Positions 1,900 through 63,989 of a stretch of DNA of 64,000 nucleotides are shown one piece after another. A model generated the notes under the pieces. The model was given only the letters and a program-made list of their open reading frames with translations. It had not been told where the DNA came from and did not search any database. Each line of letters starts with the position of its first letter. Position 1 is the first letter of the stretch. The stretch spans positions 1 through 64,000 of the forward strand of contig NZ_MSCJ01000002.1 in assembly GCF_002954615.1 (NCBI RefSeq), read 5' to 3'. The translations under genes and the position numbers were made by a program. The stretch is from Photobacterium angustum (GTDB taxonomy: Bacteria; Pseudomonadota; Gammaproteobacteria; Enterobacterales; Vibrionaceae).

Positions 1900-3627
1900 T
1901 TAAAAAGGGAATAACAGTGGGATCAGGGTTAATACAACGATTGAATACACTATCGATATTGGTAATCCAATCCGAACATAATCTCTCAGCTTATAGTTAC
2001 CTACGCTATAGACTAATAAGTTAGTTTGATAACCATAGGGTGAGATAAAGCTCGCACTAGCGCCAAACAGTACAGCCATAATAAAAGGCATAGGATCAAC
2101 GTTATAAGCTAATGCTAGGCTATAACCGATAGGAAAAGACAAAGCCGCAGCAGCATTATTCGTCACTAACTCTGTTAACACGAGTGTCAGTAAGTAAACC
2201 GCAATTAATGCCCCATAAATCCCCCAACCATTAAATGCCTCAATCAGAGCTTCACCCATTCGCTCAGATAACCCTGTTGTGATCATCAATTTAGCCAAGG
2301 TTAAAGCCGAGCCGACAATCACAACGATATCGATAGGAAAACGTCGACGTAATTCTGCAAATGAGATAATGCCTACTGCTACCATAACGAAAAGATAAAT
2401 GGCTAACCCTTTAATGATCGGTAATACATCCAATAAAGCGAGACCAATAACAGTCAGAAATCCCATCAGTACAGCTGCACTTTTGGTGTTATCTAAGCGA
2501 GCACTTGAATCAAGACCATTCACCAAGACAAATTCACGATCTAAGGTGGCTTTCTTTTGTTGGAATTTTTTACCCGGTACGATAACTAATGTATCACCAG
2601 CATGCAGTTCGATATTGCCGAGTCCACCAGCAAGACGTTCATGACCACGACGTATCGCCACAACTACAGCATCAAAATTTTCTCTAAAACGGGTGCTTTT
2701 TAAGGTTTTTCCACGAATTCCTGCCGAGTGGCTGATGATGACTTCCATCATCGATTGGCCATTTAGGTGATGCTGACCAAAAAGGTTTAAACCTGGAATT
2801 TCTTGGAGTGTGGTTACACTTTCGACATCACCACAAAATAATAAGGTATCGCCTGCCTGCAACTTAGTATCAGGACATACAGGTGCAATGGTTTGACCGT
2901 CGCGGATCAATTCAGCTAAAAATAAACGGCGTAGGGCACGCAAACCATTTTCGGCAACGGTTTTTCCTACTAACGGGGATTTAGCTTCTACACGCGCTTC
3001 AAGGAAATAAGGCAATTGATCATCGGCATGATCATCATAACTGGGTAATAGGTGACTAAGTGGGATTAGAATAGCTAAACCAACAACCAATACCGCTAAG
3101 CCAATCATACTTGGTGCGAAAAAGCCTAAACTAGGCAGACCCGCATCTTCAACGAAACTATTTATGATTAAGTTCGTCGATGTTCCTATTAACGTTAACG
3201 TTCCGCCTAAAATAGCGGTATACGACAACGGTAATAATAATTTAGATGGTGCGTGGCGCTGGTTACGCTTAATCGCACCGATTAATGACACGACAACCGC
3301 AGTATTATTCGTAAAAGATGATAATAATGCGGTTGATAAGCCGAGTTTTGTAACCACAGCCGTTTGACCACCCTGTGATATTTGACGCCCAACCCAACTA
3401 ATCAACCGTGTTTTTTCTAACGCAATGGAAACAAGGATCAACAACACTAATGTCAGTAATGACGAATTAGTGAAATTGCCAGCCAATGTTGGTAAATCGA
3501 TCATTCCCGACTGATAACCAATAAATGCCGCACCTGCAAATAAGTAAGGCGGTTTTATTTTGGTTGCCAGTAAGCAGAGAATAATCACCACCAACATAGC
3601 TAAGACAATCGCTTGCTCCCATCCCAT
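1900..3627 (-). CDS. SLC13-family permease with two TrkA-C domains, probable sulfate transporter
   Basis: A polytopic inner-membrane protein of 575 residues. Hydrophobic segments cover about 1-190 and 385-575, typical of the divalent anion:Na+ symporter (SLC13/DASS) fold. Two soluble TrkA-C-like domains lie between, at roughly 200-290 and 295-370. The conserved helix-turn regions ending in TNNTA and TNNAA (SFTNNTAVV, TELVTNNAAAA) match the family ion/substrate clamps. It lies four bases after cysN and 22 bases before cysC, so by context its substrate is probably sulfate. The family also includes carboxylate carriers, so the substrate is inference. Confidence 0.85.
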   Translation of the reverse strand: MGWEQAIVLAMLVVIILCLLATKIKPPYLFAGAAFIGYQSGMIDLPTLAGNFTNSSLLTLVLLILVSIALEKTRLISWVGRQISQGGQTAVVTKLGLSTALLSSFTNNTAVVVSLIGAIKRNQRHAPSKLLLPLSYTAILGGTLTLIGTSTNLIINSFVEDAGLPSLGFFAPSMIGLAVLVVGLAILIPLSHLLPSYDDHADDQLPYFLEARVEAKSPLVGKTVAENGLRALRRLFLAELIRDGQTIAPVCPDTKLQAGDTLLFCGDVESVTTLQEIPGLNLFGQHHLNGQSMMEVIISHSAGIRGKTLKSTRFRENFDAVVVAIRRGHERLAGGLGNIELHAGDTLVIVPGKKFQQKKATLDREFVLVNGLDSSARLDNTKSAAVLMGFLTVIGLALLDVLPIIKGLAIYLFVMVAVGIISFAELRRRFPIDIVVIVGSALTLAKLMITTGLSERMGEALIEAFNGWGIYGALIAVYLLTLVLTELVTNNAAAALSFPIGYSLALAYNVDPMPFIMAVLFGASASFISPYGYQTNLLVYSVGNYKLRDYVRIGLPISIVYSIVVLTLIPLLFPF

Positions 3628-3631
3628 AGAA

Positions 3632-5056
3632 TTACCCTAGCAACTTGCTAAGATCTTTAGCATCCCAGTGTGGGAAGTGCTTGCGGATCAGGGCATTTAA
3701 TTCAACTTCAAATGCTGAGTATTGCGCAGTATTTTGTTTAGCATCTAATGCTTCACGTACCATACCCGCACCAACCGTCACATTCGTTAAGCGATCAATA
3801 ATGATAAAGCCGCCAGTATCTTTACATGCTTGATAGCTATCAACAGCAATCGCTTCATTTAAGCTCACTTCACATAAGCCAATACCATTAAGCGGTAAAA
3901 CATCAGTTTCAAACGTTTCAAGGTTATTAATATCAACTTGGTGACGAATAGCATCAACACTACCGACCGTTTTCTTACCCGCTACTTTAATATCGTACTG
4001 GCGACCTGTTTCTAACGCTGATTCACCCATCCAAACAATATCAGCAAGTAAATTATTACTCAGTGGCACTGTTTCATCAGCAGCAACTAACGTATCACCA
4101 CGGCTAATATCAATTTCATCGGCCAAGGTTACTGTTACTGCTAAGCCTGGTGTTGCAACCTCTAAATCACCATCAAATGTTACGATGCGATCAACGGTCG
4201 AGGTTTTACCCGATGGTAACGCACGTACTTTTTGCCCCACTCGTAATTCACCTGAGGCTAATGTGCCAGCGAAACCACGAAAATCAAGGTTTGGACGATT
4301 CACATATTGCACAGGGAAACGTAGCTCTGTCGACGCCTGACCTTGAGTAAGATCCACTTTTTCAAGCAAGGTCAGTAATGAATCACCGTCATACCAAGGC
4401 GTTTGATCGCTAAGGCCAACAACGTTATCCCCTTCTAATGCTGATAACGGCACTAAGCTAATGTTGATATCACTGTTCAGTTTTTTCGAGAACGCTAAAT
4501 ATTCTTCACGGATTGACTCAAAACGCGCTTGGTCAAACCCCACTAAGTCCATTTTGTTAATCGCAACAATAAAGTGACGAATACCCAATAGACTTGCAAT
4601 GTAAGAGTGACGACGAGTTTGATCCAATACGCCTTTACGCGCATCAATCAAGATCACCGCGACATCACAGGTCGATGCTCCTGTAGCCATGTTACGGGTG
4701 TACTGCTCATGTCCTGGGGTATCAGCAATGATGAACTTACGCGCTTTGGTTGAGAAATAACGGTAAGCAACATCAATCGTGATACCTTGCTCACGCTCAG
4801 CCTGCAATCCATCAACCAATAACGCTAGGTCAGGCTTATCGCCTGTTGTACCGACTTTTTGACTGTCGGTATGAATTGCCGCTAATTGATCTTCATAAAT
4901 TTGGTGAGAATCATGCAGTAGTCGACCAATTAAAGTACTTTTACCGTCATCTACTGAGCCACAGGTTAAAAATCGCAGTAGAGATTTATTATGGTGTTGG
5001 TCAAGATAAGCTTCGATACCGAGCTCAGCGACCTGTTGTTCAATCACGCTATTCAT
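3632..5056 (-). CDS. cysN: Sulfate adenylyltransferase subunit 1 CysN (GTPase)
   Basis: The GTPase subunit of ATP sulfurylase. GTP hydrolysis here drives APS formation by CysD. It is related to EF-Tu: G1 GSVDDGKST at residues 33-41, G3 DTPGHEQY at 112-119, G4 NKMDL at 167-171, then two beta-barrel domains. The 474 residues are as in E. coli CysN (475), and no CysC domain is fused. It starts 10 bases after the cysD stop; the two proteins form a heterodimer. Confidence 0.97.
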
Positions 5057-60322: not shown

Positions 60323-61456
60323 ATGACTATCGATTATCATCAACTTGCTGAGCAGATCAAAACTTGGGGACAAGAGCTGGGCTTTCAACAAGTGGGTATC
60401 ACTGATATTGATTTGTCACAACACGAAGCTGAATTGCAACGCTGGCTTGATGCTGGCTATCACGGTGATATGGACTGGATGGCACGTCATGGCATGATGC
60501 GTGCGCGCCCTGCTGAACTACTACCTGGCACTATCCGCGTGATCAGCGTAAGAATGAATTACCTTCCGCCTCACGCAGAATTTGCCCAAACACTTAAGCA
60601 ACCTCAAAAAGCATTTATTAGTCGCTATTCACTCGGTCGTGATTATCACAAACTGATCCGTAATCGGCTTAAACAGTTAGGGCAACGTATTGAGCAAGTC
60701 GTCGGGCAGTTTGGCTGCCGACCTTTTGTTGACTCAGCGCCTATCCTAGAGCGTCCTTTGGCACAAAAAGCAGGGCTTGGTTGGACAGGCAAACATTCAC
60801 TTATCTTAAATGAACAAGCAGGCTCTTGGTTCTTTTTAGGTGAACTATTAGTTGATATTCCACTACCAATTGATAAACCAAGCAGTGATCAATGTGGTAA
60901 ATGTGTCGCGTGTATAACGAGCTGTCCAACAGGTGCTATTGTTGAGGAAGGAATCGTGGATGCGCGTCGTTGTATTTCATACTTAACGATTGAATTTGAT
61001 GGTGTGATCCCAGAGCAATACCGCAGTGCTATTGGTAACCGTATCTATGGTTGTGATGACTGCCAATTAGTCTGCCCAATAAACAGACATGGACAATTAA
61101 CAGAAGAACATGATTACCACTGTCGTGACAGCTTATACCAACAAGATTTGCTGACTCTTTATGCTTGGGATGAAACGACATTCTTAAAAAATACGGAAGG
61201 CTCAGCTATTCGCCGGATAGGCCACATTCAATGGCTCAGAAATATCACAATTGCTCTGGGTAATGCTTCTTATCAAATAGAAATTGTTGAAGCACTTCAG
61301 CAACGTCAAGGGATCTCTGAATTACTTGATACACATATCGATTGGGCGCTATCGCAACAACAACAAAGAAAAGATCAACTCGCTCTCGAAATTTTACCCA
61401 CTAAAACAAAACGTTTAGTACGGATTATTGAGAAAGGCTTACCTCGAGATGCATAA
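60323..61456 (+). CDS. queG: Epoxyqueuosine reductase QueG
   Basis: A cobalamin- and iron-sulfur-dependent enzyme performing the last step of queuosine synthesis in tRNA. Cluster ligands are C191, C194, C197, C201 and C244, C247, C251 with C217. The Asp137 in FVDSAPILERP is the conserved catalytic residue. 377 residues, like E. coli (379). Divergent from nnr and directly followed by the DnaA-box region. Confidence 0.97.
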   Translation: MTIDYHQLAEQIKTWGQELGFQQVGITDIDLSQHEAELQRWLDAGYHGDMDWMARHGMMRARPAELLPGTIRVISVRMNYLPPHAEFAQTLKQPQKAFISRYSLGRDYHKLIRNRLKQLGQRIEQVVGQFGCRPFVDSAPILERPLAQKAGLGWTGKHSLILNEQAGSWFFLGELLVDIPLPIDKPSSDQCGKCVACITSCPTGAIVEEGIVDARRCISYLTIEFDGVIPEQYRSAIGNRIYGCDDCQLVCPINRHGQLTEEHDYHCRDSLYQQDLLTLYAWDETTFLKNTEGSAIRRIGHIQWLRNITIALGNASYQIEIVEALQQRQGISELLDTHIDWALSQQQQRKDQLALEILPTKTKRLVRIIEKGLPRDA

Positions 61457-62204
61457 GTCACTCGGGGGATATGTGGAAAACTTTTTAAAGATAGGTTTTT
61501 TCTTGGGGATAGGTAAAGATTAAACACAGGAGGTGGATAACATAATCAAGATAGTTATCCCGAAGAAGAGCATGACAAAAAAACTGTTGAAAAACAGGTG
61601 TAAATTCCAACATTTATATTATAAAACATAAAGTTAAACAAAATAAAAACACCTGTGGATAACGATAATTAAACACCATTCAAATAAAATTTCAAAGTTA
61701 CTCACATAGCATCAGCACATCTAATCAACCAACTTACCCACAGTACATGTAGTGTGGATAACTCTGTTAATTTCATTGTGATCTAACGGTGAAATACTAT
61801 TATAAAAATAATGTGTTAGCGCTATCTGCAATGTTATTCGCTCAGATGGCACAGCTTTATGCACTACTGTTGCAATAGATAAACATTACTAAGAAAAGAG
61901 CGTACGCGTTAGTTATATCGCGCCAATACAGCAGTATTGATGTTACAACATGAATCCCCTGTATTGCTGAGACAGCAAAAACAACCCTTAAAGGTTGCTT
62001 TATACAAAGTGAGTTCTGTTGTCGAAGCCGATCGCTTCTAAGTGGGCTTCGTAGCTAAGCTAGAAACACTTGAAGCAGTACACTGATGATATCGGTAATC
62101 GAATACCTCAGGAATACTACATTAGGACTATTACTTCACAGCAATAGTTCATCGATAAGTTCGATGATAACTCTGTTTATCTACAATGAAATAAACAATC
62201 AAAT
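61457..62204. promoter_or_regulatory. Gene-free region with a DnaA-box cluster; possible datA-like locus
   Basis: No gene is seen across about 750 bases between queG and tRNA-Gly genes. Two perfect TGTGGATAA sites (61654-61662 and 61753-61761) are reverse complements of the consensus DnaA box TTATCCACA. One-mismatch or near sites are TGTGGAAAA (61472-61480), GGTGGATAA (61532-61540), TTACTCACA (61698-61706) and TTACCCACA (61734-61742). An inverted repeat GGATAAC/GTTATCC (61535-61541 / 61554-61560) surrounds AATCAAGATAGTTA, which resembles an IHF site with one extra spacer base. In E. coli datA lies between queG and glyV, so the context matches. Other hairpins near 61980-62050 are unassigned. 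Confidence 0.6.
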
Positions 62205-62280
62205 TGGAGCGACACACGAGGTTCGAACTCGTGACCTCAACCTTGGCAAGGTTGCGCTCTACCAGCTGAGCTAGTGTCGC
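62205..62280 (-). tRNA. tRNA-Gly (anticodon GCC), copy 1
   Basis: 76 bases including the encoded CCA end. GCGACAC/GTGTCGC acceptor stem, TTCGAA T-loop, anticodon loop CTTGCCAAG. The last gene of the array in transcription order. Confidence 0.97.
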
Positions 62281-62332
62281 ATAGCTAGGTCTTTCACCTA
62301 ACGTTCATCACTTTCGCCATGAACTATCAAAT

Positions 62333-62408
62333 TGGAGCGACACACGAGGTTCGAACTCGTGACCTCAACCTTGGCAAGGTTGCGCTCTACCAGCTGAGCT
62401 AGTGTCGC
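62333..62408 (-). tRNA. tRNA-Gly (GCC), copy 2
   Basis: Sequence identical to copy 1; 52-base spacer to the neighbour. Confidence 0.97.
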
Positions 62409-62460
62409 ATAGCTAGGTCTTTCACCTAACATTCACCGCTTTCGCCATGAACTATCAAAT

Positions 62461-62536
62461 TGGAGCGACACACGAGGTTCGAACTCGTGACCTCAACCTT
62501 GGCAAGGTTGCGCTCTACCAGCTGAGCTAGTGTCGC
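62461..62536 (-). tRNA. tRNA-Gly (GCC), copy 3
   Basis: Sequence identical to copy 1; spacer differs by single bases. Confidence 0.97.
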
Positions 62537-62588
62537 ATAGCTAGGTCTTTCACCTAACGTTCACCGCTTTCGCCATGAACTATCAAAT

Positions 62589-62664
62589 TGGAGCGACACA
62601 CGAGGTTCGAACTCGTGACCTCAACCTTGGCAAGGTTGCGCTCTACCAGCTGAGCTAGTGTCGC
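62589..62664 (-). tRNA. tRNA-Gly (GCC), copy 4
   Basis: Sequence identical to copy 1; upstream neighbour is an initiator tRNA gene. Confidence 0.97.
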
Positions 62665-62685
62665 ATCACATCTCTTAAAAGAGAT

Positions 62686-62762
<77 letters not shown>

Positions 62763-62833
62763 TCCGATTTTGCACCTATTTTAAGTTGGGTGACAACTAT
62801 TTTTATTCACCGCCGTAGCCATGAATATCAATT

Positions 62834-62909
62834 TGGAGCGACACACGAGGTTCGAACTCGTGACCTCAACCTTGGCAAGGTTGCGCTCTACCAGCTGAGC
62901 TAGTGTCGC
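62834..62909 (-). tRNA. tRNA-Gly (GCC), copy 5
   Basis: Identical to copy 1; first full Gly-fMet unit of the long type. Confidence 0.97.
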
Positions 62910-62930
62910 ATCACATCTCTTAAAAGAGAT

Positions 62931-63007
<77 letters not shown>

Positions 63008-63078
63008 TCCGATTTTGCACCTATTTTAAGTTGGGTGACAACTATTTTTATTCACCGCCGTAGCCATGAATATCAATT

Positions 63079-63154
63079 TGGAGCGACACACGAGGTTCGA
63101 ACTCGTGACCTCAACCTTGGCAAGGTTGCGCTCTACCAGCTGAGCTAGTGTCGC
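63079..63154 (-). tRNA. tRNA-Gly (GCC), copy 6
   Basis: Identical to copy 1. Confidence 0.97.
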
Positions 63155-63176
63155 ATCACATCTCTTTAAAAGAGAT

Positions 63177-63253
<77 letters not shown>

Positions 63254-63324
63254 TCCGATTTTGCACCTATTTTAAGTTGGGTGACAACTATTTTTATTCA
63301 CCGCCGTAGCCATGAATATCAATT

Positions 63325-63400
63325 TGGAGCGACACACGAGGTTCGAACTCGTGACCTCAACCTTGGCAAGGTTGCGCTCTACCAGCTGAGCTAGTGTCGC
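63325..63400 (-). tRNA. tRNA-Gly (GCC), copy 7
   Basis: Identical to copy 1. Confidence 0.97.
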
Positions 63401-63421
63401 ATCACATCTCTTAAAAGAGAT

Positions 63422-63498
<77 letters not shown>

Positions 63499-63569
63499 TC
63501 CGATTTTGCACCTATTTTAAGTTGGGTGACAACTATTTTTATTCACCGCCGTAGCCATGAATATCAATT

Positions 63570-63645
63570 TGGAGCGACACACGAGGTTCGAACTCGTGAC
63601 CTCAACCTTGGCAAGGTTGCGCTCTACCAGCTGAGCTAGTGTCGC
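63570..63645 (-). tRNA. tRNA-Gly (GCC), copy 8
   Basis: Identical to copy 1. Confidence 0.97.
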
Positions 63646-63667
63646 ATCACATCTCTTTAAAAGAGAT

Positions 63668-63744
<77 letters not shown>

Positions 63745-63815
63745 TCCGATTTTTCACCTGTTTTAAGTTGGGTGACAACTATTTTTATTCACCGCCGTAG
63801 CCATGAATATCAATT

Positions 63816-63891
63816 TGGAGCGACACACGAGGTTCGAACTCGTGACCTCAACCTTGGCAAGGTTGCGCTCTACCAGCTGAGCTAGTGTCGC
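63816..63891 (-). tRNA. tRNA-Gly (GCC), copy 9
   Basis: Identical to copy 1. Confidence 0.97.
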
Positions 63892-63912
63892 ATCACATCT
63901 CTTAAAAGAGAT

Positions 63913-63989
<77 letters not shown>

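Follow-up and report, generated by a model that had tools for sequence, protein, structure and literature searches.

The inactivation of DnaA that depends on the datA locus has been worked out in Escherichia coli. E. coli datA lies at 4.39 Mb, against 3.92 Mb for the origin, and its essential DnaA boxes all point one way (PMC5742627). Its function depends on the spacing of box 2, the IHF site and box 3 (PMC4585315, PMC10380432), and IHF at the locus is controlled by transcription that reads through from the promoter of tRNA-Gly (PMC10950094). DARS elements carry boxes I and II in opposing orientations (PMC8682772).

For the Vibrionaceae, sections of a Vibrio review place DARS-like sequences of V. 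cholerae at the same positions as in E. coli and describe SeqA control as well as DARS-like sites for chromosome 1; in those sections, datA appears only as a likeness for the RctB sites of chromosome 2 (PMC6090056). The RctB titration sites and crtS of V. cholerae are presented as extra-origin initiator-binding sites likened to datA and DARS (PMC3937223). Among the paper titles listed in literature searches, none names a datA in Vibrionaceae; an earlier mention in other papers is possible. Here we describe a fixed array, composed of box A, box B, an IHF-like position and a facing pair of DnaA boxes, which occupies the place of datA and is kept in most of the sampled genomes of this family.

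The interval between queG and the tRNA-Gly genes

The window, a stretch of 64,000 nucleotides from Photobacterium angustum, contains 748 bp (34.9% GC) between the queG stop codon at 61456 and the first tRNA-Gly gene, on the minus strand, at 62205 (Table 1). Among the matches listed, the nearest named relative of the encoded QueG is that of P. phosphoreum (82%). The initial annotation had described the interval as gene-free, and indeed no ORF of at least 60 amino acids lies wholly within it; a single ORF of 62 amino acids extends into the tRNA. It had also named the same neighbours as those of E. coli datA, which was confirmed by the assignment of queG and of the tRNA-Gly(GCC) array and by the K-12 datA gap, itself located between tRNA-Gly and queG.

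Because the gap sits between two gene 3' ends, it is without the promoter of either flanking gene, and a promoter role for these genes was rejected. A known RNA family was likewise rejected as the identity of the interval, with an Rfam search of positions 61000-62204 returning no match at E ≤ 1. The 15 tRNA genes are packed within 1.8 kb (62205-63989) at the end of the 64-kb stretch. Among the matches listed, contigs of several relatives stop near this tRNA array, which perhaps breaks assembly.

Two perfect DnaA boxes (TGTGGATAA) were found at 61654 and 61753, reading TTATCCACA on the minus strand. Four further sites carry one mismatch (61472, TTTTCCACA; 61532, TTATCCACC; 61734, TTACCCACA; 62177, TTATCTACA), so that the initial count of two perfect and about four near sites was accurate. 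The site at 61472 also fits the consensus box TTWTNCACA. An inverted repeat around an IHF-like sequence, reported at the same time, is present as well: GGATAAC (61535-61541) and GTTATCC (61554-61560) enclose AATCAAGATAGTT, which has two mismatches against the IHF consensus WATCAANNNNTTR. No exact match to this consensus exists within 61457..62204. The repeat is not a conserved core, however, as both of its arms occur only here and in two relatives (L001 and L002) among 31 intervals. It was rejected in this capacity, and the conserved IHF-like position lies at 61624-61636 instead.

Table 1. Coordinates of the array and its surroundings, counted from the first nucleotide of the window.
Feature	Position	Strand	Remarks
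queG (epoxyqueuosine reductase)	60323..61456	+	TIGR00276, E 4.1e-148
Gene-free interval holding the array	61457..62204	.	flanking genes convergent
Conserved box A, TTTTCCACA (box 3 equivalent)	61472..61480	-	TGTGGA[AC]AA in 67/67 unique intervals
Conserved box B, TTAAACACA (TTA[AG]NCACA)	61520..61528	+	67/67 unique intervals; no recognised E. coli counterpart
One-mismatch DnaA box, TTATCCACC	61532..61540	-	overlaps left arm of GGATAAC/GTTATCC repeat; not family-wide
Inverted repeat GGATAAC/GTTATCC	61535..61560	.	both arms in only 3 of 31 aligned intervals
IHF-like site at conserved position, AAACATAAAGTTA	61624..61636	+	2 mismatches in this genome
Perfect DnaA box outside family-wide core	61654..61662	-	
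Outer box-like 9-mer, TAATCAACC, 3 bp from left box	61722..61730	+	base frequencies of 69 unique cores
Left box of facing pair, TTACCCACA	61734..61742	+	
Right box of facing pair, TTATCCACA with ACAGAG flank (box 2 equivalent)	61753..61761	-	
Outer 9-mer, AAATTAACA, at place of box-7-like 9-mer, 3 bp from box 2	61765..61773	-	
9 tRNA-Gly(GCC) and 6 tRNA-Met genes	62205..63989	-	array directed towards the element

The boxes in the interval exceed chance expectation. Shuffled versions contained a mean of 0.007 perfect boxes, and none of 3000 reached the two observed; the three consensus boxes compare with a mean of 0.15 and were reached in 2 of 3000 shuffles. Across 31 Vibrionaceae intervals, which are related sequences and not independent events, we counted 55 perfect boxes, whereas 100 rounds of shuffling gave 0.23 on average and never more than 2. 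Since the interval was picked after its boxes had been seen, conservation is a better test than shuffling. Over the whole genome, TTATCCACA is barely enriched (54 copies in 4.886 Mb versus 49 for the reversed pattern), and it is therefore the local clustering that matters.

Conservation in Vibrionaceae

Among the 80 named queG loci listed, all 30 from Vibrionaceae contain one or more perfect boxes in the interval that follows queG. A facing pair of the form TTAYCCACA-spacer-TGTGGATAA is present in 31 of 31 intervals (that of this genome and 30 found by QueG alone) and is followed by the tail STCTGT in 30 of them. Conservation of the tail was counted only on these 31 intervals because the loci obtained with the strict pattern described below were selected for it. 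Alignment of the 31 intervals from queG to the tRNA revealed a common order: box A (TGTGGAAAA, minus strand), box B (GTTAANCACA, plus strand), the IHF-like site and, last, the facing boxes TTAYCCACA / TGTGGATAA.

A strict pattern of pair plus tail matched 173 of 197 Vibrionaceae genomes, in one place each, while its reversed control matched none. In six of the 173 the pattern matches both strands, the place being palindromic. A laxer pattern, allowing the pair another tail, recovered 13 of the 24 strict misses and raised the total to 186 of 197 genomes. Among the 11 genomes missed by both patterns, four (G047, G003, G004 and G005) have mismatched facing pairs with a register of 18-19 beside queG, two (G150 and G011) have only one perfect box of the pair, one (G127) reads N at the pair position, one (G001) has no perfect box, and three (G073, G192 and G193) gave no QueG match. 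Of 247 genomes sampled from the order, 20 matched the pattern: 14 of the 18 Vibrionaceae included, and six members of a single other family. These six (L121-L126) contain a facing pair with a 13-bp spacer, possibly their origin region; they showed no QueG match in their 3 kb and were set aside.

The fetched pair loci adjoin queG in 54 of 56 cases (28/30, 13/13 and 13/13). The remaining two (L166 and L167) belong to small genomes of 2.1 and 2.6 Mb; there, orn is the neighbour of the pair and of boxes A and B, and neither queG nor a tRNA was found within the 8-kb locus. Removal of L098, L103 and duplicates left 67 unique intervals, of which 31 are named or this genome's, and removal of duplicates reduced 72 cores to 69. 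Two mirrored loci (L089 and L149), which lack the searched form of the pair in the queG orientation, were left out of the counts.

Boxes A and B are present in all 67 unique intervals, separated by 39 bp in 64 and by 38 bp in three, and box B lies 186-205 bp from the pair. The expectation of the initial annotation that the boxes be conserved in related genomes was thus borne out both by the pair and by boxes A and B. In the 69 unique cores, the two boxes of the pair are separated by 10 bp in 62 and by 9 bp in the other seven (register 19 or 18), and a box-like 9-mer stands 3 bp before each pair box, TTATCAACC-like on the left and TTATCAACA-like on the right.

In 38 of the 67 intervals, an IHF-like site that departs from the consensus by one base at most stands to the left of the pair at a distance of 90-98 bp (shuffle mean of 1.1, maximum of 5 in 300 rounds), a range that was fixed after the distances had been seen. 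The same site occurs in 23 of the 31 intervals comprising this genome's and the named ones. At least two mismatches are found at this position in the other 29 of the 67. The next highest counts in other 9-bp bins were 5 on the plus strand and 9 on the minus strand, versus 38; counted over the whole segment, IHF matches were not significant (43 of 67 versus a shuffle mean of 30 and maximum of 44).

Comparison with E. coli datA and other initiator sites

In K-12, counting from queG, box 3 is at 14, the IHF site (TATCAATAGGTTA) at 107, box 2 (TGTGGATAACTCTGTTTACA) at 176 and box 1 at 243, with box numbers assigned here from order and papers. Box A, the IHF-like site and the pair's right box follow one another in the same way, and lie on the same strands, as box 3, the IHF site and box 2, respectively. 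Box 2 also carries its ACAGAG flank in both systems: all 39 Enterobacterales loci have ACAGAS-TTATCCACA at box 2, as do 30 of the 31 Vibrionaceae intervals. The Enterobacterales loci all contain ACAGASTTATCCACA (39/39), with the best IHF match 55-58 bp from box 2 in 27. As box R4 of E. coli oriC has the same flank as box 2, the flank alone does not prove descent. In one genus (g10), all 12 cores have the flank on the queG-side box but only six have it on both boxes, so that the orientation of box 2 is not uniform.

A box-like 9-mer lies 3 bp from box 2 in E. coli as well, where it reads TTGTAAACA and, judged by order, would be box 7. TWATNAACA-like 9-mers are common at this 3-bp gap in the family; the one in this genome, AAATTAACA, matches TTWTNCACA poorly. 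The read-through geometry of E. coli datA, with the tRNA-Gly array directed at the element, is also present here, and the stretch 61380-62340 shows no terminator-like site. Like E. coli datA, the array lies a few hundred kb from the origin. Its distance from dnaA on the same contig is 219-361 kb in 20 of 20 genomes, which were chosen for having the motif on a large contig and for 11 of which the contig was assumed to be circular. In this genome, dnaA and the mioC-mnmG origin are on contig C1 near its end, rctB is on C3 and the array is on C2 (246 kb); the array would be ~243 kb from dnaA only if C2 belongs in the gap of C1. Genes for both IHF subunits are present.

The differences from E. coli datA begin with spacing. 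Box 2 and the IHF site are 116 bp apart here versus 56 bp in K-12, and box 3 and the IHF site 143 bp versus 84 bp. Vibrionaceae possess an extra facing box with its own outer 9-mer and a conserved box B, and two of their conserved boxes point the other way, unlike the essential boxes of E. coli. Box 1 of K-12 is without a counterpart in the Vibrionaceae comparison, and the IHF match is weaker in this genome (two mismatches). The proposal that this is the Vibrionaceae counterpart of datA therefore holds for gap, order, strand, box-2 flank and family conservation, but not for the E. coli spacing. Because spacing matters for E. coli datA, we file the locus as a datA-like positional counterpart and variant, not as an E. 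coli-type datA. From its sequence, the array looks like such a counterpart in rearranged form.

Outside these groups, 11 named loci from other gammaproteobacterial groups, among the loci listed, have no consensus box in the gap (0-325 bp). These boxless loci include Rheinheimera and Arsukibacterium (L064, L073 and L075), in which queG is still next to tRNA-Gly. Among 26 genomes, one per other family, queG was found in 17. Two perfect minus-strand boxes of the E. coli type occur in L172 and L176, the latter having no tRNA nearby.

A possible link to replication control in a two-chromosome genome, raised by the initial annotation, was not upheld. The array is on C2 and rctB on C3, and the flanked box ACAGASTTATCCACA, which at first suggested a link between the chromosomes, is single-copy in 19 of 21 genomes of the same genus. 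This genome has only two copies of it, in the array and on the side of the rctB origin. The second (L199, 1501-1515; G000:C3:269001-269015) is flanked by ParA-like and RctB ORFs and adjoins GATCA-rich repeats, in what is probably the chromosome-2 origin. To our knowledge, Enterobacterales, in which the E. coli form of datA occurs, are without such a second chromosome. Like the RctB titration sites and crtS of V. cholerae, the array consists of predicted extra-origin initiator sites in Vibrionaceae; unlike them, it is made of DnaA boxes and is off the rctB contig, whereas those sites bind RctB and act on chromosome 2.

Other clustered or flanked boxes were observed in passing. In genus g10, a flanked DnaA box lies upstream of polA (L200, around 1500); seven of the eight loci listed share the surrounding sequence, with ORFs checked in L200 only. 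Boxes upstream of polA are also present in this genome (L116, 7482-7632). On its contig C1, two perfect boxes and one TTTTCCACA box (L117, 3185-3374) lie just downstream of the rpoH ORF (minus strand, 3550-4410), past its 3' end rather than before its start.

Proposed role and alternative explanations

We consider the array to be probably the Vibrionaceae counterpart of E. coli datA, acting as a non-coding brake on the initiation of chromosome 1 replication. The model follows the datA mechanism, as outlined in PMC5742627, PMC10380432 and PMC10950094. The array would be duplicated soon after the origin fires, IHF would bend the DNA between box A and the facing pair, and ATP-DnaA would assemble head-to-tail on each box together with its outer 9-mer. 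This assembly would speed the hydrolysis of DnaA-bound ATP, and re-initiation would thereby be prevented. We infer DnaA binding and ATP hydrolysis at the array by this analogy. Since a second module faces box 2 (with a 10-bp spacer and 19-bp register in most) and the spacing is longer than in E. coli, the hydrolysing complex would probably form on the two-armed module.

More tentatively, the array may be a distinct two-armed DnaA machine of a kind not seen in E. coli. Two head-to-tail modules facing each other across ~10 bp would build a symmetric ATP-DnaA complex, either hydrolysing ATP or switching to nucleotide release. If this is true, the array, being kept where queG and the tRNAs are gone, would rank among the last replication controls to be lost in shrinking genomes.

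A passive titration site, whose boxes soak up DnaA after duplication with no stimulation of ATP hydrolysis, would fit several boxes of strong sequence close together, the loss of the E. coli datA spacing and the weak IHF match in this genome. Such a site needs no near-constant registers, fixed IHF-like position or conserved flanks, yet all of these are seen here, and we regard titration as unlikely.

We give less credence still to a DARS-type element, which would reactivate ADP-DnaA via two facing boxes. The array does recall DARS boxes I and II, and it resembles E. coli DARS1 and DARS2, which we take to lie upstream of uvrB and mutH, in having a facing pair in non-coding DNA. Membership was rejected by register, which is 19 bp in 62 of 69 cores and 18 bp in seven, whereas the DARS1 and DARS2 regions of E. 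coli have 14 bp. In addition, this genome has a separate, DARS1-like pair of facing perfect boxes, with a register of 14, upstream of uvrB, the place of DARS1 (L118, 3452-3474; G000:C1:659951-659973).

It is very improbable that the array acts as a hairpin or attenuator in RNA read through from the tRNA operon and matches DnaA boxes only by coincidence. The tRNA array is transcribed towards the pair, which in this genome folds as minus-strand RNA (z -2.84), and where the left box varies between T and C (26 of 62 cores with the 10-bp spacer) a U-G pair would be kept. However, no terminator-like site was found in the stretch named above. By inspection, the left box of G047 and G003 (TTATTCACA) breaks the stem at base 5 and is still within TTWTNCACA, while G004 breaks it at two bases with a left box (TGATCCACA) that is off consensus; G011 and G150 keep the right box only. 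Boxes A and B are not palindromic, yet they are in every unique interval, and the E. coli datA sequence has no left arm. Chance boxes in AT-rich intergenic DNA, a reading favoured by the genome-wide count, can be practically dismissed given the shuffles of the interval and the presence of the pair in 186 of 197 genomes against none for the reversed control.

For the reading we prefer, that of a datA counterpart, the regularity and wide retention of the array make it testable whether chromosome 1 of Vibrionaceae uses the same brake as E. coli. The array also lets one ask which spacings are required for datA function and whether a single module can be substituted by two that face each other. Its natural variation across the family provides a ready set of alleles for dissecting the mechanism.
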